From assembly GCF_004339525.1 (NCBI RefSeq), contig NZ_SMGE01000001.1, forward strand, positions 3,844,001 to 3,908,000: 64,000 bases of DNA. Direction: 5' to 3'. This document shows positions 5,130 to 57,938 of the stretch, one piece after another; within the stretch, counting starts at the first letter, position 1; each line of letters begins with the position of its first letter. Below the pieces are notes generated by a model. It had not been told where the DNA came from, searched no databases, and worked only from the letters and a program-made list of their open reading frames with translations. Source of the stretch: Flavobacterium sp. 90. Its GTDB lineage: Bacteria; Bacteroidota; Bacteroidia; Flavobacteriales; Flavobacteriaceae. Both the position numbers and the translations under genes were made by a program.

Positions 5130-5166
5130 AAAAAAGCCTGTAAACATTAAGTTTACAGGCTTTTTT
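5130..5166 (-). terminator. tmRNA terminator
   Basis: GCCTGTAAAC (5136-5145) pairs perfectly with GTTTACAGGC (5151-5160) around a 5-base loop. On the minus strand it is followed by a run of six T, immediately after the tmRNA 3' end. Confidence 0.85.
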
Positions 5167-5167
5167 G

Positions 5168-5560
5168 TGGAGTCGCCGGGAATCGAACCCGGGTCCAAAC
5201 AAGCAACTAAAGAGCTTTCTACACGTTTATTTCCTGATTGAATTTTCGATGTTAAGCTAGGTCAGGAACAACCACTCAACACTTATCTTCTTAATTTCGA
5301 AATCCACCCGAAGCTCATGGAAATCTAGGTCTATTTTTACGGTTCCCCTATACTGACCGCCACAAACCAAGGCTTTCAAGGAGAATCCAGCTTCCCTATC
5401 TTATAGGGACGTGGCTAATCTTACTATAATTCAGATTATGCAGCTAAAGCGTAGTTATTTTCGCCGTGTAAAATTGTAAGATCTTATATTTACGAGCAAG
5501 GTCTCAATGCTCGACGTGCTTACTTTTCAATTCGACTTGCTGTCAAAACCAGTCGACCCC
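5168..5560 (-). ncRNA. ssrA: tmRNA (transfer-messenger RNA)
   Basis: This RNA rescues stalled ribosomes by acting first as an alanyl-tRNA and then as a short message. The 5' strand GGGGTCG (5560-5554) pairs with the 3' strand CGACTCC (5175-5169) to give a seven-pair acceptor stem with one G-U. The 3' end has a T-arm with GGTTCGATTCCCGG. Downstream of the discriminator A the genome does not read CCA, so CCA is probably added after processing. The tag frame at 5465-5436 reads GGC GAA AAT AAC TAC GCT TTA GCT GCA TAA, that is GENNYALAA after the charged alanine, a typical Bacteroidetes proteolysis tag. A terminator follows directly. Confidence 0.97.
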
Positions 5561-10090: not shown

Positions 10091-10177
10091 CGGTTGCCCT
10101 AGCCCTGATGGGAGCGGCATCCTTTTATGGCGGGGTTCGCCATAAAAGATATAGTGTACAGCAGGAAATAGCTCCTG
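10091..10177 (+). ncRNA. Candidate flavo-1-like structured RNA
   Basis: The block begins TTGCCCTAGCCCTGATGG, continues GAGCGGCATCC, has a hairpin ATGGCG-GGGTT-CGCCAT flanked by TTTT/AAAA, and ends CAGGAAATAGCTCCT. This composition is GC-rich against AT-rich surroundings. It matches my recollection of a sequence found again and again between genes in Bacteroidetes, catalogued as the flavo-1 RNA motif. GGAGC near 10111 can pair with GCTCC near 10171. The function of that motif is unknown and the strand is my best guess. The remainder of the 9956-10364 gap holds only the repeat near 10005 and AT-rich DNA. Confidence 0.5.
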
Positions 10178-50029: not shown

Positions 50030-51043
50030 TTAGTCTTCATATCGCTTTATCGCGTTTTGAAGGATTTTTTTCATCTTGTTTCTTAGGTATTCCGGTCGCA
50101 AAACCTCAATTCCATCTCCAAAACCCAATAAAATGCGTTCCATTTCATAATTAGAAGAAATCATTAAATGAACGATAATACTATTATCCTCATTTTCCTG
50201 AATCAGTCGTTGTGTGTGATGCAAAGGTTTTGTCAATACATAAGGAGCATTTGCGGCATCAATCCAAAGTTCAATTCTTCGTGGTTGTAAACCAGTATTT
50301 ACCGTAACGCCAATTACGTTTTTATAATAAACATCAGCATCAAAATCCTCCTCTATATAAGGAAGATTAAAATCATAATCAATTGCAATGATTCTGTCCA
50401 AAGCCAGATTTGTAATCGGTTGAGAACCTTTAGTCTTCCCGATCAAAAACCAACGATTATTGAATTCCTTCAAAATAAAAGGATGAAAATGAAATTTACT
50501 TTCTTCCCGCGATTTAAACGATTTATACGTAATCATAAGCACAACCTTCTTGATAATCGCCTGATAAATCTCATCTAAATAATGCAAACCTTTCAAGCCT
50601 TCGTTTTTATCCAGATAAATAACCGGTTTCGTATGCGATTTCTCCGAGTAGATTTTATCCTCCAAACGCTGTAAAATATCCGAAACATCATTAAACAGCG
50701 AAAAATCCTTAAACTGCTTCAACATCGAAACCGTCTCCGTCAAAACATTCATATCCGTTTCCGTCAGCGGAATATCCGTTATCGTAAATTCGTCGTCATC
50801 ATATTTATAAAACTTCTTATCATAAACGACAATTGGCGCGTTATAACCAAGCTTTTCACTTCGCATCAACTGAATATCCATTTGGATTGTTCGTTTGCTA
50901 ATTGGGTTTGCTCGACCTTCATATTCAAACAAAGCTTCAGAGCAACATTCGATTAAATCTTCGAGAGTCCATTGCCTGTATTTATTCTGCAGACATTTGT
51001 CTATTGTTTTGTACCGTATTAAGGCGTTCTTGTTTTGTGACAT
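50030..51043 (-). CDS. WYL-domain transcriptional regulator
   Basis: The N-terminal winged helix (RYKTIDKCLQNKYRQWTLEDLIECCSEAL and SKRTIQMDIQLMRSEKLGYNAPI, 1-75) is followed by a WYL domain (ITYKSFKSREESKFHFHPFILKEFNNRWFLIGKT) and a WCX-like C-terminal part. WYL domains bind nucleic acid or nucleotides and often control DNA- or RNA-damage and defence genes (for example PafBC). It lies about 1 kb from the TROVE/RNA-repair genes and is the best candidate for their regulator, on context alone. Confidence 0.85.
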   Translation of the reverse strand: MSQNKNALIRYKTIDKCLQNKYRQWTLEDLIECCSEALFEYEGRANPISKRTIQMDIQLMRSEKLGYNAPIVVYDKKFYKYDDDEFTITDIPLTETDMNVLTETVSMLKQFKDFSLFNDVSDILQRLEDKIYSEKSHTKPVIYLDKNEGLKGLHYLDEIYQAIIKKVVLMITYKSFKSREESKFHFHPFILKEFNNRWFLIGKTKGSQPITNLALDRIIAIDYDFNLPYIEEDFDADVYYKNVIGVTVNTGLQPRRIELWIDAANAPYVLTKPLHHTQRLIQENEDNSIIVHLMISSNYEMERILLGFGDGIEVLRPEYLRNKMKKILQNAIKRYED

Positions 51044-52039: not shown

Positions 52040-52073
52040 ATCCTTTTTTACTCAAAAATAACATTCTTTTTTT

Positions 52074-52112
52074 ACTGCGCAAAATAATTGCGTAGTAGTT
52101 CTGAAATCTTTG
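52074..52112 (+). promoter_or_regulatory. Shared palindromic operator plus -7-like box, copy 1 (TROVE gene)
   Basis: ACTGCGC (52074-52080), nine bases AAAATAATT, then GCGTAGT (52090-52096): an inverted repeat with one mismatch. AATCTTTG follows at 52105-52112, 15 bases after the start of the second arm. Copies at 53693 and 55993 have identical spacing. Confidence 0.8.
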
Positions 52113-52165: not shown

Positions 52166-53683
52166 ATGAAATTCAATTTTTTAGCAAAAGAAAAAAACAC
52201 TGTAGTTAATTACGAAAATGCAACCGCTTATACATTAACAACAGATTATGAATTGTATGCAGCGGTTGTAACAACAAGTTTGAATGCTTCATTTTATGAA
52301 AAAGATACAACTCGTTTAGAAAGAATTAAAGAGTTGATCAAAAAAGCCGATCCTGTTTTTGTTGCAAAACTAGCCGTTTATGCCCGAAACGAAATGCATA
52401 TGCGTTCAGTTCCATTAGTTTTAATAGTAGAATTGGCCAAAATATATTCCGGTGATTCCTTAATCAGTAAAATGATTACACAAGTTATACAACGTGCAGA
52501 CGAAATAACCGAATTATTGGCGTATTACCAAATGACAAACGAGAGAAACGGAATCAAAAAATTAAACCGTTTGTCGAAGCAAATACAAAAAGGTTTGGCA
52601 CATTCATTCAATAAATTTGACGAATACCAATTCGCAAAATACAACCGTGATGGTGCAGTAAAATTAAAAGATGCCTTGTTTTTGGTACATCCAAAAGCAA
52701 AAGACGAAGCACAACAACTATTGTTTAATAAAATTGTAAACAATAGTTTAGAAACGCCATATACATGGGAAACGGAGTTGTCAAAAATAGGTCAGATAAA
52801 GTATTTTAACGAAGCCGAAAAGCAAAAAGCATTCACTCAAAAATGGGAAGAATTGATCGATAGTAACAAAATTGGTTACATGGCTTTGTTGCGAAACTTG
52901 CGAAATATTGTCGAAGCCAACGTTTCACGATTTCATATATTAAAAGTTTGTGATTATCTTTCTAATGAAAAAGCGGTCGCAAACTCAAAACAATTGCCAT
53001 TCCGATTTTTAGCCGCTTATCGCGAGTTAAAAACAATGGATTCTAAATATACGTCCATGATTTTGGATGCTTTAGAAGATGCCGTTTTGGTAAGTGCGCA
53101 AAATATAAAAGGTTTCGATATCAATACATCCGTTGTAATCGCTTGTGATGTTTCTGGTTCGATGCAAAAAAATATCTCGCCAAAAAGTAAAGTAATGCTT
53201 TATGATATTGGTTTGATGTTGGGTATGTTGATGCAAAACCGTTGTAAAAATGTGGTAAGCGGTATGTTTGGTGATCGATGGAAAATAATCAATATGCCAA
53301 AACGAGCGATATTATCCAATGTAAACGAATATTACAAACGCGAAGGTGAAGTAGGTTATTCGACAAACGGTTATTTGGTTTTGGAAGATTTGATCAGCCG
53401 AAAAGAAATTGTAGATAAAGTGATGTTGTTTACAGATGTTCAAATGTGGAATAGCAATATGACAAAAGATTCATTTGCAAACTCCTGGAACCGCTATAAA
53501 AACATCGCACCAAATGCAAAATTGTATTTGTTTGATTTGGCAGGTTACGGTCAGGCACCAATAAATGTTGAGAAAAACGATGTGTATTTAATCGCAGGTT
53601 GGTCAGATAAAGTATTTGATGTATTGAATGCTTTAGACGATAAAAGCAGCGCATTAAATTACATCAACCGAATAGAATTGTAA
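52166..53683 (+). CDS. rsr: TROVE-domain Ro60-like RNA-binding protein (Rsr)
   Basis: The 505-residue protein has an N-terminal TROVE HEAT-repeat ring (about 1-300; FVAKLAVYARNEMHMRSVPLVLIVEL is a typical repeat) and a C-terminal von Willebrand A domain. The latter's metal site is D328-V-S-G-S332 with a later Thr near 400 and D424 (LFTDVQMW). Ro60 rings bind ends of misfolded RNAs in the central hole and Y RNAs on the outside. Length matches Deinococcus Rsr. An array of six structured RNAs follows directly, and an RNA ligase and end-healing enzyme lie further on. An operator shared with those units precedes it. Confidence 0.93.
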   Translation: MKFNFLAKEKNTVVNYENATAYTLTTDYELYAAVVTTSLNASFYEKDTTRLERIKELIKKADPVFVAKLAVYARNEMHMRSVPLVLIVELAKIYSGDSLISKMITQVIQRADEITELLAYYQMTNERNGIKKLNRLSKQIQKGLAHSFNKFDEYQFAKYNRDGAVKLKDALFLVHPKAKDEAQQLLFNKIVNNSLETPYTWETELSKIGQIKYFNEAEKQKAFTQKWEELIDSNKIGYMALLRNLRNIVEANVSRFHILKVCDYLSNEKAVANSKQLPFRFLAAYRELKTMDSKYTSMILDALEDAVLVSAQNIKGFDINTSVVIACDVSGSMQKNISPKSKVMLYDIGLMLGMLMQNRCKNVVSGMFGDRWKIINMPKRAILSNVNEYYKREGEVGYSTNGYLVLEDLISRKEIVDKVMLFTDVQMWNSNMTKDSFANSWNRYKNIAPNAKLYLFDLAGYGQAPINVEKNDVYLIAGWSDKVFDVLNALDDKSSALNYINRIEL

Positions 53684-53692
53684 AAATAAAAT

Positions 53693-53733
53693 CTACTGCG
53701 CAAAATAATCGCGCAGTAGTATTTGAATCTTTG
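53693..53733 (+). promoter_or_regulatory. Shared palindromic operator plus -7-like box, copy 2 (RNA array)
   Basis: CTACTGCGC (53693-53701) and its perfect inverse GCGCAGTAG (53711-53719) surround AAAATAATC; this is the most perfect of the three copies. AATCTTTG lies at 53726-53733, again 15 bases after the start of the second arm. RNA 1 begins about 25 bases later. Confidence 0.85.
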
Positions 53734-53757: not shown

Positions 53758-53885
53758 AAACAAGTGCCGTAAAAAAGAGTTCCTTCGTGTCGTGGGTTCA
53801 ATTCCCATCAATTCTATTATAAAGATAGAATTGTAGCTCAGATGGTAGAGCAGAAATATGTTTCTTTTTGAATGTTGTCTTGTTT
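53758..53885 (+). ncRNA. Y-RNA-like RNA 1 with permuted tRNA-like module
   Basis: The lower stem is AAACAAG (53758-53764) with CTTGTTT (53879-53885). The internal loop is TGCCGTA opposite GAATGTTGT. The upper stem is AAAAAGA (53772-53778) with TCTTTTT (53863-53869), followed by the GTTCCTTCG box. Inside lies a tRNA-like module in circularly permuted order: T-arm GTGGG-TTCAATT-CCCAT (53792-53808), an acceptor-like stem CAATTCTAT/ATAGAATTG closed by seven bases (53809-53833), then TA and a D-arm GCTC-AGATGGTA-GAGC (53836-53851). CGTGT/ATATG (53786-53790/53856-53860) closes the module where an anticodon stem would be. There is no anticodon loop, so it is not a tRNA. The order T-arm before D-arm is that of bacterial YrlA Y RNAs. 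Confidence 0.85.
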
Positions 53886-53894
53886 AAAAAAAAT

Positions 53895-54024
53895 AGTATT
53901 GGTTTCGTAGATAAGAGTTACTTCGGGGGAATTGTAGTACAGGTTCGAATCCTGTTCAGTTTAGGCTGATAGTGAAATGGTAACACACAATTATATAGTC
54001 TCTTATTGATTATTATCCAATGCT
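53895..54024 (+). ncRNA. Y-RNA-like RNA 2 with permuted tRNA-like module
   Basis: The lower stem is AGTATTGG (53895-53902) with CCAATGCT (54017-54024). The internal loop is TTTCGTAG opposite TGATTATTAT. The upper stem is ATAAGAG (53911-53917) with CTCTTAT (54000-54006), then TTACTTCG. The module is closed by AATTGT/ACAATT (53930-53935/53987-53992) and holds a T-arm ACAGG-TTCGAAT-CCTGT (53939-53955), a short hairpin TCAG-TTTAGG-CTGA (53956-53969) as the closed acceptor, TA, and a D-arm GTG-AAATGGTAA-CAC (53972-53986). Stem sequences are unrelated to RNA 1, but every helix pairs. Confidence 0.85.
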
Positions 54025-54031
54025 TTAAATA

Positions 54032-54167
54032 AAAAAGAATGTCGTAAATAAGGGGTACTTCGTCTCAAATTTGGGGAGGAATAGCAAAGTTGTAGAAACA
54101 GCAAGGTTATCCAGTTCGACTCTGGCAAGACAAGCCCCGTTTCTCTTATTGCCTTTAACTTCTTTTT
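54032..54167 (+). ncRNA. Y-RNA-like RNA 3 with partial tRNA-like module
   Basis: The lower stem is AAAAAGAA (54032-54039) with TTCTTTTT (54160-54167). The internal loop is TGTCGTA opposite GCCTTTAAC. The upper stem is AATAAG (54047-54052) with CTTATT (54145-54150), followed by GGGGTACTTCG. Inside, GGGG (54073-54076) pairs with CCCC (54135-54138), enclosing a hairpin GTTGT-AGAA-ACAGC (54089-54102) and a T-arm-like CCAG-TTCGACT-CTGG (54111-54125). Unlike RNAs 1 and 2, the T-arm comes last and no convincing D-arm is present. Confidence 0.75.
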
Positions 54168-54172
54168 AAAAC

Positions 54173-54238
54173 TGAAAAATGTCGTATGTGAGAAATACTT
54201 CGTTCCAAAAAGAATTCTCATCAATTGTTGCTTTTTCG
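54173..54238 (+). ncRNA. Y-RNA-like RNA 4, short form
   Basis: The lower stem is GAAAAA (54174-54179) with TTTTTC (54232-54237). The internal loop is TGTCGTAT opposite CAATTGTTGC. The upper stem is GTGAGAA (54188-54194) with TTCTCAT (54215-54221), possibly continuing past a bulged A, then ATACTTCG. The apical loop is short and has no tRNA-like module. Confidence 0.75.
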
Positions 54239-54244
54239 AATTTA

Positions 54245-54312
54245 TAAGATGCCGTGTATAAAGTGTTACTTCGCCTTAAATGAAAATCGTCACTTATACA
54301 ATATTGCTCTTA
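54245..54312 (+). ncRNA. Y-RNA-like RNA 5, short form
   Basis: The lower stem is TAAGA (54245-54249) with TCTTA (54308-54312). The internal loop is TGCCGT opposite AATATTGC. The upper stem is GTATAA(A)GTG (54256-54265) with CACTTATAC (54291-54299), with one bulged A, then TTACTTCG. No tRNA-like module is present. Confidence 0.75.
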
Positions 54313-54316
54313 AAAA

Positions 54317-54388
54317 AAAAGAGTGTCGTCAGGAAATGGTTACTTCGTTCCAAAGAAATTTAAACCATTCCTAAACATTACCTCTTTT
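54317..54388 (+). ncRNA. Y-RNA-like RNA 6, short form
   Basis: The lower stem is AAAAGAG (54317-54323) with CTCTTTT (54382-54388). The internal loop is TGTCGTC opposite AAACATTAC. The upper stem is AGGAA(A)TGGTT (54331-54341) with AACCATTCCT (54363-54372), again with one bulged A, and the TTACTTCG box follows. No terminator lies between it and the SUKH gene, so the array and that gene may share a transcript. Confidence 0.78.
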
Positions 54389-54416: not shown

Positions 54417-54947
54417 ATGACAATCAAAGAAATAAAATATAAAGCAGAAAAGAAGTTCGAAAAAATGCAACTCAGAGATGATTGTTATGGATTTCAAATA
54501 CAACCTAATACCAAGTTTATAAAAGGTATTAGCAGAAAAGAAATCGATAAATTACAAGTATTATTTGGCTTTGATTTTCCTTGGGATTATAGAGAAATGC
54601 TTTTAATTCTGGGAGGAATAGATACTCCGGAAATTTCAATTGATCCGGACGGAGAAGAGGAAATAAGATTTAATAATTTTTTTTACCAATATCCAGGAGA
54701 TATTGAGAAATCAAAGTGGTTGATTGAAGATATAAATACATTCAGGTTTTATGCAGAAGAAGTTTTAACAGAAGCAGGATTTGACGTTTCTAAAATTGTA
54801 GGTTACATTCCAATTTACAACCACAGAGTACTTGTTGTTTTCGAGAATAAATATCTTTCTCCAGTTATTTCTGTTATGGGTGGTGATATAATCGTATTCA
54901 GCAACAGTTTGAAAGAATATCTGAAGTACGAATTTTTAAATGATTAA
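54417..54947 (+). CDS. SUKH-family (SMI1/KNR4-like) protein
   Basis: The 176-residue protein has the SUKH pattern: ISRKEIDKLQVLFGFDFPWDYREMLLILGGI (helix then tryptophan and L-L-x-x-G-G), DGEEEIRFNNFFYQYPGDIEKSKWLIEDI, and IPIYNHRVLVVF. SUKH proteins are often immunity proteins against toxins, especially nucleases, but also act as adaptors. No toxin is visible, and here it lies between the RNA array and RNA-repair genes. An adaptor or protection role is a guess. Confidence 0.75.
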   Translation: MTIKEIKYKAEKKFEKMQLRDDCYGFQIQPNTKFIKGISRKEIDKLQVLFGFDFPWDYREMLLILGGIDTPEISIDPDGEEEIRFNNFFYQYPGDIEKSKWLIEDINTFRFYAEEVLTEAGFDVSKIVGYIPIYNHRVLVVFENKYLSPVISVMGGDIIVFSNSLKEYLKYEFLND

Positions 54948-55011: not shown

Positions 55012-55782
55012 ATGAAAAATATTTTCCCATATCCGTATTATATTTATGGTTCTGATGATTCTACAGATCAGGATGTTATTATTATAGTTCCAAAAAAAGA
55101 TATGCCGGAAACGCAGGAAGACCGAAAAAATAAGGTCTTTTTTCTTTTAAAAGAATATAATCTGAAATGGAATGCAACATTAGCGGTTATCGAAAATGGG
55201 AAAATTATAGATACAATTTTTACCAAATCATGGATTGATTCCATAAATAATGCTGTTCTTGAAACGTATAGTTTACATCAACAGGAATATGATTTATTAA
55301 TAACCGAAAGACAAATTAGAAATAAAACATTGGCGATTTACAAAGCTGTTCGTACCGTTTTGACCATGCTGACACGAACAGAATACAGAACTCAGATTCG
55401 TCCAATTATAAAAGGAATTCATGATTTTAATTTGAAATTGGAAGTACTTGGCAAAATAGATTTTCTTTCACTTTCAGAGTTTCATCAGAAGAATACACCA
55501 GATACAGATATTTGGAAAATTATAGCTTTTTATGTCGGACAAAATATTGCTCTTATCGAAAATGATATTGAAATATATACCAAAAAGAACTTTGTAAGCC
55601 ATTACAATGATTTGAGCGCCTTTATTTATAGAAAATCAATTACTGCTGATGATAAAATGATTTTGCAGCAATATGTTAGTCATTGGCTGAAACTGCTTCA
55701 AAATTTTGGAGAATTCAAATCGGAAAATGGTTTTTTGACTTGTAAAGAGGAATGTATTGATATGTTAAATGAAAAATTTTAA
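55012..55782 (+). CDS. Nucleotidyltransferase-like protein in RNA-repair locus
   Basis: The 257-residue protein starts at the ATG at 55012; a TTG nine codons upstream is less likely. Near the N-terminus YIYGSDDSTDQDVIIIVPKK fits the nucleotidyltransferase motif hG-S-x(n)-D-x-D, with LAVIENGKIIDTI as a possible third strand. The rest is helical (RQIRNKTLAIYKAVRTVLTMLTRTEYR). It could add nucleotides to broken RNA ends, but only the first motif is clear. The ligase gene and its operator follow 265 bases later. Confidence 0.6.
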   Translation: MKNIFPYPYYIYGSDDSTDQDVIIIVPKKDMPETQEDRKNKVFFLLKEYNLKWNATLAVIENGKIIDTIFTKSWIDSINNAVLETYSLHQQEYDLLITERQIRNKTLAIYKAVRTVLTMLTRTEYRTQIRPIIKGIHDFNLKLEVLGKIDFLSLSEFHQKNTPDTDIWKIIAFYVGQNIALIENDIEIYTKKNFVSHYNDLSAFIYRKSITADDKMILQQYVSHWLKLLQNFGEFKSENGFLTCKEECIDMLNEKF

Positions 55783-56047: not shown

Positions 56048-57064
56048 ATGAATACAACGCTTTTAAAAGAGATGATTTCCAAAAATTATGTAAGGGTAAA
56101 CAAACATCCTAAACATGATTTATATATTTATAATTATACGCAAAGTGCACAATTTGAGAGAATTTGGAATGAGGTTACTTTGGCGTGTAGAGGTTTAATT
56201 TTGGACGAAAAAGAGAATGTAATTGCAAGACCCTTTCCTAAGTTTTTTAATTTAGGCGAAATGGAAAATCAAATACTTCCGGATTCCACTTTTGAAGTTT
56301 ATGATAAAATGGACGGTTCAATGGGAATTTTGTACTGGATGGATGAGGTTCCGTTTATGGCAAGCCGAGGTTCTTTTGCAAGCGCACAATCCCATAAAGC
56401 GAATGAAATGCTACAGGGAAAATATAGAAATTCATGGTCACTTTTGGATAAAAACAAAACCTATTTATTCGAGATTATTTATCCCGAAAACCGCATTGTT
56501 TTAGATTATGGTTCGGCGGAAGAATTGGTTTTATTAGCTATTATTGATACACAAACTGGTGAAGAATTTCCGCTGGAAGATATTGGTTTTCCTTTGGTTG
56601 AAAAATATAACGGAATCAAAGATATTTCCCTTTTAAAAGAAATGGATATTGCAAACAAAGAAGGTTTTATCATTAAATATGCAAACAACTTTAGAGTAAA
56701 AATTAAATTTGAAGAGTATCTTCGTTTACACCGAATTATTACTCAGGTTTCTAACTTGAATATCTGGGAATATTTGAAAACCAATCAGCCAATGGAAGAA
56801 ATTCTGGAACGAGTTCCGGATGAGTTTTTTGATTGGGTGAAAGAGACCAAAGCAGATTTAGAAAATAAATATGCGGTAATAAAAGATCAGGCAAAAAAGG
56901 ATTTCAAAGTATTAGAAACGGTCAAAGAAACCGCTTTTTATTTCATGACTTGTAAACATCCGGGCGTATTATTTGCAATGCTGAATAACAAAGATTATTC
57001 AGTCATTATATGGAAAATGATTCGGCCAACATTTGAAAAACCGTTTAATAGAGAAGAAGAATAA
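56048..57064 (+). CDS. T4 Rnl1-like ATP-dependent RNA ligase
   Basis: The 338-residue ligase has nucleotidyltransferase motif I K87-M-D-G-S (lysine that becomes adenylated), preceded by ARPFPKFFNLGE, a block strongly reminiscent of Rnl1. Motif IIIa is in YLFEIIYPENRIVLDYG, motif IV in KEGFIIK (Glu205) and motif V in VKIK (218-220). It would join 3'-OH and 5'-phosphate RNA ends after healing. It is directly followed by the kinase-phosphatase, one base apart, like the T4 end-repair pair. It is preceded by the shared operator. Confidence 0.9.
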   Translation: MNTTLLKEMISKNYVRVNKHPKHDLYIYNYTQSAQFERIWNEVTLACRGLILDEKENVIARPFPKFFNLGEMENQILPDSTFEVYDKMDGSMGILYWMDEVPFMASRGSFASAQSHKANEMLQGKYRNSWSLLDKNKTYLFEIIYPENRIVLDYGSAEELVLLAIIDTQTGEEFPLEDIGFPLVEKYNGIKDISLLKEMDIANKEGFIIKYANNFRVKIKFEEYLRLHRIITQVSNLNIWEYLKTNQPMEEILERVPDEFFDWVKETKADLENKYAVIKDQAKKDFKVLETVKETAFYFMTCKHPGVLFAMLNNKDYSVIIWKMIRPTFEKPFNREEE

Positions 57065-57065
57065 A

Positions 57066-57938
57066 ATGAGAAAAGTAATTTTAATGAAAGGATTGCCGGG
57101 AAGTGGGAAATCTACTTTGGCTAAAAAGATAATTGCAGATAATCCTGAAACCTATAAAAGAATCAACAGAGACGATTTGCGCGCTATGTTTGATAACGGA
57201 AATACAACTCAAAGCAACGAGAAATTCGTTAAAAAAGTACGTGATTTATTAATCGTAAAAGCTTTGGAAGAAGGGAAAAGCATTGTGATTGATGATACCA
57301 ATTTATCGGATACTAATTTTAGACGCGTTTCACAATTAGTTAAAGAATATAACACAAAATTTAATGAAAAGGTTGAAGTTGAGGTTATGGAAGTCAATAC
57401 AGATGTTGCGGTTTGTATTGAAAGAGATGCTTTGAGAGAAAAACCAGTTGGAGAAAAAGTGATCAAAAAAATGCACCGACAATTCTTTAAAGATTCACCG
57501 GAATACGCAATCCAAAACCCGGATTTGCCAAAAGCTATTATCTGTGACCTTGACGGAACTTTGGCTTTAATGAATGGAAGAAGTCCTTTTGATGCAAGCA
57601 AATGTGATCAGGACGAAATCAATAATCCAGTGGCGAATGTTTTGAGAAATTACAAGAAATTAGGTTACGAGATATTATTAGTTTCAGGAAGAGAAGACCG
57701 ATACAAAGAACCAACGTTGAGGTTTCTTGAAAAACACGAAATCGAATACGACGCTTTAATCATGCGAAAAACTCAGGATAGCCGAAAAGACTCCATCATC
57801 AAAACCGAAATCTATAACGAATCTATAAAAGATAAATACTTTGTAGAATTTGTTCTCGACGATAGAAACCAAGTAGTGGATACCTGGAGGAATGATCTGA
57901 AATTACCGTGCTTCCAGGTTTATTATGGGGATTTTTAA
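57066..57938 (+). CDS. T4-type polynucleotide kinase/3'-phosphatase
   Basis: The start at 57066 follows the ligase stop by one base; the open frame further upstream overlaps the ligase and is not expected to be used. Kinase domain: GLPGSGKST (9-17, P-loop) and D36-D-L-R39, matching the catalytic Asp and Arg of T4 Pnkp. Phosphatase domain: D161-L-D-G-T165 with VSGREDRYKEPT and VEFVLDDRNQVVDTWR, a HAD fold. It would heal 5'-OH and 3'- or 2',3'-cyclic-phosphate ends for the ligase. Length 290 versus 301 in T4. Confidence 0.92.
   Translation: MRKVILMKGLPGSGKSTLAKKIIADNPETYKRINRDDLRAMFDNGNTTQSNEKFVKKVRDLLIVKALEEGKSIVIDDTNLSDTNFRRVSQLVKEYNTKFNEKVEVEVMEVNTDVAVCIERDALREKPVGEKVIKKMHRQFFKDSPEYAIQNPDLPKAIICDLDGTLALMNGRSPFDASKCDQDEINNPVANVLRNYKKLGYEILLVSGREDRYKEPTLRFLEKHEIEYDALIMRKTQDSRKDSIIKTEIYNESIKDKYFVEFVLDDRNQVVDTWRNDLKLPCFQVYYGDF

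Follow-up and report, generated by a model that had tools for sequence, protein, structure and literature searches.

Six Y RNA-like units with variable tRNA-like heads adjoin a Ro60 gene in Flavobacterium sp. 90

Bacterial Y RNAs, said to have been recorded by Chen et al. in 2014 in more than 250 species, are already known, as is their mimicry of tRNA. As described in passages of PMC8394870 and PMC4726728, the Ro60 protein Rsr is bound by the stem of the Y RNA, whose tRNA-like domain is a substrate of the modifying enzymes DusA and TruB, and a passage of PMC11472068 presents YrlA as circularly permuted relative to tRNA (structure 6CU1). Here we describe six consecutive Y RNA-like units (positions 53758-54388) directly 3′ of a TROVE/Ro60 gene (52166-53683) in a 64,000-nucleotide stretch of Flavobacterium sp. 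90 (6.65-Mb genome; contig NZ_SMGE01000001.1, positions 3,844,001 to 3,908,000), hereafter the window. This arrangement is the one pointed out in an earlier note on the stretch, whose reading of the units as Y RNA-like is supported by tight linkage to TROVE, covarying stems and a significant, if sub-threshold, match of unit 1 to the YrlA family.

The nearest described counterpart is YrlA (Rfam RF02553), for example in the Salmonella rsr-yrlBA-rtcBA operon. Going by the passages on it in PMC7790460 and PMC8394870, it agrees with the present locus in adjoining a Ro60 gene, in an end-to-end stem, in a permuted domain with the order T arm, acceptor, D arm, and in having repair genes near. The Flavobacterium locus differs in having six units with several head types rather than yrlB and yrlA, with YrlA scores below the gathering threshold; its regulator gene is of WYL rather than RtcR type, and an Rnl-type ligase and a polynucleotide kinase-phosphatase (PNKP) are found in place of RtcBA. 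The Deinococcus radiodurans Rsr–Y RNA–PNPase complex (RYPER), a Ro60 protein with a Y RNA tether, provides a model of mechanism; the passages on it in PMC8394870 and PMC4726728 discuss one Y RNA, in contrast to the many per locus here. The tRNA-like domain of transfer-messenger RNA (tmRNA) is likewise a tRNA T arm grafted onto another RNA, but the present units have neither a reading frame nor an aminoacylation end, and the tmRNA of the window is a separate gene (5165-5560). Eukaryotic Y RNAs are likewise small Ro60-bound RNAs with a paired lower stem, binding being presumed for the units here. Apart from YrlA, no Rfam Y RNA family matched in the window.

Each unit consists of a lower and an upper stem, separated by an asymmetric loop that contains YCGT, together with a TACTTCG-like box. 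The box claimed for every unit is present generally, its exact form in unit 1 being TCCTTCG, and the bulged A claimed for the upper stem holds for units 5 and 6 but not for unit 4. With about five pairs, unit 5 has a short lower stem. The 5′ arms score highest with their own 3′ half rather than with the other five in all six units, and the observed scores were matched by 4, 1, 0, 20, 4 and 0 of 300 shuffled 3′ halves for units 1–6, respectively. Single-sequence folding energies were clearly better than those of shuffles in units 1 and 6 alone (z −3.14 each) and less so in unit 5 (−1.86) and unit 2 (−1.26).

Pairing was then assessed across the genus, where 34 of 398 genomes contain TROVE above the cut-off and an array is present at the main TROVE locus in 34/34. 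With units chosen by motif only, the own 3′ half was the unique best partner in 139 of 167 cases (33 expected) at the 33 of these loci with at least three sites; L062, with fewer than three sites, was left out. Two-sided changes were found at 14/17 pairs in 38 short units, at 17/21 pairs in 37 units of class A (described below), and in class C at 16/30 pairs in 26 units and at 23/35 in 25 units of wider origin. In all four sets the covariation score was reached by 0/500 shuffles and slid versions scored lower throughout, while a measure of further pair types in the short-unit set was reached by 171/500 shuffles. Because the descriptor-derived units were chosen partly via stem pairing, the core pair counts are biased toward structure, and the motif-only test is therefore the weightier one for the core stems; it is independent of the stem choice, as are the class-C head helices and the two tRNA-based tests given below. 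In assembling the Flavobacterium unit set, 11 candidates were dropped, 5 of which were restored, and two were excluded by hand. These results indicate that the six structures are real and beyond chance. Stems broken by substitutions in homologous loci, which would have spoken against the proposal, were looked for and are not what these loci contain, and the covarying stems and arrays beside other TROVE genes that it had anticipated were found in relatives.

The units are closely tied to TROVE. A model of the short units gave 185 matches at 54 of the 55 loci searched, all 185 located 3′ of TROVE and on its strand; the one locus without a match, L144, was covered for only ~200 bases after the gene. 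In the Flavobacterium sp. 90 genome, this model found units 4–6 plus one chance-level match (E 0.64). In a draw of 395 genomes from the phylum, 28 contain TROVE, and the class-C model matched in 18 of these 28 as against 0 of the 367 others, with 46/46 matching places lying within ~3 kb of TROVE. Arrays also occur in Chryseobacterium, and direct reading showed them in three genomes that are more distant; among named genomes, the scan comprised the best 80 of 221 loci. The descriptor background amounts to 44 reverse-strand matches in 751,702 bases, and lone units far from TROVE may therefore be chance. Six units in tandem had been thought unusual, a view that does not hold for this group, with 3–6 filtered units per locus in the 34 Flavobacterium loci and up to 9 by descriptor in some Chryseobacterium. 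What is notable is the variable heads, not the unit number. In one further genome, G341, the TROVE stretch is broken and sub-threshold, and on two viral contigs a short-model match lies upstream of a TROVE gene (L260:4326-4399, E 7.3e-5; L263:2293-2365, E 3.1e-5).

The long units owe their length to tRNA-like heads, which had been overlooked in the earlier note. Units 1 (53758-53885) and 2 (53895-54024), on the + strand like all six, form class A, in which the Y core carries a head that begins with a T arm, continues with an acceptor-like stem capped by a loop and ends with a D arm. In unit 1, the T arm (53792-53808) is followed by acceptor strands at 53810-53817 and 53825-53832 and a D arm at 53836-53851; in unit 2, the T arm (53939-53955) is followed by a short acceptor-like stem (53956-53959 with 53966-53969) and a D arm at 53972-53986. 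The class-A head is thus ordered as a circularly permuted tRNA without an anticodon arm, in whose place the Y stem stands. The YrlA model scored 40.8 bits (E 1.6e-7) on unit 1 and 23.6 bits (E 0.015) on unit 2, and in relatives it gave 16 sub-threshold matches at 15 of 20 loci (best, 43.8 bits), all on class-A units. By eye and unscored, the D arm of unit 1 equals that of tRNA-Phe and that of unit 2 resembles tRNA-Gln; the T arms, compared in the same way, fit other tRNAs than the D arms do, so that no single source tRNA emerged for a head.

Two features that were not used for finding the heads support the likeness to tRNA. First, the acceptor strands pair better with their own partner than with swapped ones, at 6.17 of 7 pairs versus 3.91 in 48 Flavobacterium heads and at 6.37 versus 5.06 in 103 heads from loci elsewhere (3 and 7 heads, respectively, were too short for an acceptor and were left out); own-partner pairing was reached by 0/2000 permutations in both sets. 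Second, the tRNA tertiary pair 15-48 covaries between heads: it is G-C in 32, A-U in 16 and exceptional in 3 of 51 Flavobacterium heads, and G-C in 82, A-U in 20 and exceptional in 8 of 110 heads outside this set, a count that omitted 33 class-A heads whose D arm was unclear. Both kinds are present in the window, as G15/C48 in unit 1 and A15/U48 in unit 2. Many class-A heads are orthologous, and the acceptor and 15-48 counts are not counts of independent events.

Unit 3 (54032-54167) belongs to a second type, class C, and lacks the permuted tRNA-like head that distinguishes YrlA. Its head is a junction in which a GGGG/CCCC stem (54073-54076 with 54135-54138) encloses a hairpin of two stems and an internal loop (54081-54110) and a T arm (54111-54125). 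Across 25 examples from Flavobacterium, Chryseobacterium, Pedobacter, Sphingobacterium and Saprospiraceae records, the hairpin stems and the T stem show two-sided changes with pairing kept. The GGGG/CCCC closing stem is nearly invariant in these examples, and RNAalifold favoured over it a local hairpin formed by the box with GGGGAGG; we retained the closing stem since, by eye, the outer pair of this stem seems to be changed on both sides in L162, L165, L168 and L171, while it is broken in L158. None of the class-C units compared, in the window and in 20 relative loci, gave a YrlA match, and a search of Rfam 15 found no family matching class C in the loci searched.

The remaining units are short. 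Units 4 (54173-54238) and 6 (54317-54388) have no tRNA-like head, and unit 5 (54241-54316), plain in the window, corresponds in many relatives to a unit whose loop holds a lone T arm. Among 165 filtered units at the 34 loci, 54 are of class A, 29 of class C, 23 have a T arm alone, 56 are short and 3 are other; by pattern, a T arm is present in 105 of them and in none of the remaining 60. A head of another kind is seen in L062, where the units of the array are scattered across ~2 kb: two units located 907 and 1863 bases past TROVE share an identical head without a T arm and look duplicated.

An inverted repeat of the form TACTGCGC-AAAATAAT-(T/C)GCG(T/C)AGTAG precedes both the TROVE gene (52073-52098) and the array (53694-53719), followed in each case by AATCTTTG (52105-52112 and 53726-53733), which resembles the −7 promoter element of this phylum. 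With up to three mismatches, the repeat occurs at exactly these two places in the genome. A loose pattern of the repeat, tallied without a background count, was found upstream of TROVE in 28 of the 34 Flavobacterium loci and upstream of the array in 22. At six loci the repeat is missing upstream of TROVE, and precisely these six encode a divergent WYL protein (44-47% identity to that of the window). Because the absence of the repeat tracks this divergence, the pattern points to the WYL/WCX-domain protein encoded upstream (50030-51043, − strand; Pfam WCX 9.1e-15, WYL 1.4e-9) as the putative cognate regulator of the repeat and the likely regulator of the locus. Three repeat-bearing loci gave no WYL match in the stretch examined. 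A sigma-70 promoter scan, which leaves other promoter types outside its scope, returned 13 promoter-like sites compared with 11.3 in shuffles. At two loci with a divergent WYL protein, L063 and L058, G+C-rich hairpins of the CTCCCGCAG...CTGCGGGAG type recur between units; they may be operators of that protein or terminators.

RNA repair genes lie downstream of the array in the window, with an RNA ligase (56048-57064, +; Pfam RNA_lig_T4_1, E 9.9e-18) followed by a PNKP-like protein (57066-57938, +; HAD_PNKP 2.7e-51, AAA_33 1.1e-20). At the named Flavobacterium loci (L097-L119), RtcB is near the array in 20 of 23 and an RNA ligase in 3 of 23. Coupling of the array to repair genes is common, not general.

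Based on these data, we propose that the six units are probably bacterial Y RNAs that share one Ro60 ring through a common stem, carry exchangeable tRNA-like handles and are co-regulated with RNA repair through the WYL protein. They adjoin the TROVE gene, their ends pair in a stem (weakly in unit 4 alone), and units 1 and 2 contain the permuted tRNA-like domain. The TROVE protein (505 amino acids, + strand; Pfam TROVE 2.3e-29) is Rsr-like, and its residues 14-492 align with two solved TROVE-domain proteins. In the proposed mechanism, the locus would be a regulated RNA quality-control and repair unit whose products are a single ring protein of the Ro60 type, Rsr, and several Y RNAs. The lower stem and the YCGT/TACTTCG core, common to all six, would seat the presumed transcripts on Rsr. 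The outer ends vary, with two permuted elbow-and-acceptor heads (class A), one T-arm junction head (class C) and three plain ends, and each head would link the ring with PNPase or with enzymes recognizing the tRNA elbow, or would gate the ring, so that one Ro60 protein could serve several tasks. The WYL regulator would sense a damage signal and turn on Rsr together with the array, the repair genes being included at some loci.

Several observations weigh against this proposal. No unit attains the YrlA gathering score of 69 bits, and three of the six window units are without a tRNA-like head, so that the idea of handles covers part of the set only. Unit 4 is weak in the 3′-half shuffle test (20/300), and units 3 (z 0.02) and 4 (z −0.16) fold no better than shuffles by single-sequence energy, although plain folding energy is a poor witness for these units. 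The Chryseobacterium loci show no ligase, RtcB or WYL protein in the stretch examined, and a second, distant TROVE gene in genome G314 (L064) has no array. Finally, 10 of the 28 TROVE-bearing genomes of the phylum draw gave no class-C match; because the filters were strict, these ten are not proof of absence, and a laxer search covering 64 loci gave weak matches near TROVE in three of them (L204, L206 and L221).

The main rival to exchangeable handles is that the heads are decoys, acting as tRNA-elbow sponges for factors that attack or modify tRNA under stress or phage infection, with Rsr merely stabilizing them. Mimicry of tRNA by the heads and the proximity of repair genes in Flavobacterium would suit such a role, and a passage of PMC7790460 considers it possible that YrlA competitively inhibits an anticodon nuclease. 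However, the heads are without the anticodon arm that such a nuclease attacks, and 60 of the 165 filtered units are retained in the arrays although they have no T arm by pattern; we regard decoys as an unlikely explanation. Less probable by far is a leader or untranslated structure, that is, a single long transcript in which hairpins control or shield the downstream mRNA and from which no separate small RNAs arise. The array does sit between a promoter-like element and the downstream genes, and a terminator scan (2 terminator-like sites compared with 1.3 in shuffles) placed none on the + strand between units except for a match inside the T arm of unit 1. Nevertheless, the lower stem closes every unit separately, and the array stays behind TROVE though the downstream genes vary among relatives.

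It is very hard to sustain that units 1 and 2 are permuted tRNA genes, precursors whose halves would be rejoined by the adjoining ligase and kinase. The 3′ half precedes the 5′ half and an RNA ligase and PNKP are near, but the Y stem replaces the anticodon arm, whose absence led us to reject this candidate; ARAGORN calls no tRNA here, units 3–6 do not fit, RtcB takes the place of the ligase in many relatives, and Chryseobacterium has no ligase in the stretch examined. Hairpin repeats acting at the DNA level with no RNA function, suggested by the tandem hairpins and conserved boxes, were rejected as scarcely credible, since the T-loop, D-loop and 15-48 pair are conserved as in tRNA and all short-model matches lie on the TROVE strand.

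Y RNAs with exchangeable handles on one ring may, more tentatively, be a wider arrangement: many Ro60-owning Bacteroidota could possess a modular system in which one ring and a repertoire of Y RNAs with different tRNA-like handles (permuted elbows of more than one tRNA type, class C and a lone T arm) tether the ring to several tRNA-handling enzymes and join it to WYL-controlled RNA repair, with class C as a new, widely conserved family that grafts a T arm in a manner unlike YrlA. As far as checked, the new elements are the regular multi-headed array, class C and the class with a lone T arm, covariation of the 15-48 pair from head to head, and a WYL gene accompanied by a shared repeat; among the matches listed by a literature search of open-licence papers, no title concerns arrays of Y RNAs in Bacteroidota. 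A constant, presumably Ro60-binding stem with interchangeable heads in one cell provides a natural series for testing directly what the outer ends of Y RNAs are for. Class C is a candidate RNA family whose helices covary across the five groups named above, and the shared operator-like repeat is a lead to what switches Ro60 on in this group.

Other features of the window and its surroundings were also recorded. The array is followed by a gene for a SUKH-like protein (54417-54947, +), whose match to SMI1_KNR4 (E 6.4e-5, 24 bits) falls slightly below the Pfam cut-off of 25.4. Between it and the RNA ligase lies a gene for a protein without a Pfam match (55012-55782, +); by eye, this protein has a nucleotidyltransferase-like motif at its start, and it is found near the ligase in some relatives. 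A Flavo-1 RNA is present at 10097-10172 (+, 73.8 bits), and Flavo-1 also occurs near the TROVE loci of two relatives (L006 and L022). About 1.2 kb beyond the window, four low-scoring, odd tRNA-like genes stand in a row (L197:1179-1678; C1:3909178-3909677). Their outer arms are alike while their anticodon loops differ; they are unlike the Y units and are perhaps a mobile tRNA cluster. Elsewhere (L194:700-903; C1:4102439-4102642), two near-identical tRNA-like genes, to which ARAGORN assigned no anticodon, have a 3′ part in common with the adjoining tRNA-Arg genes.
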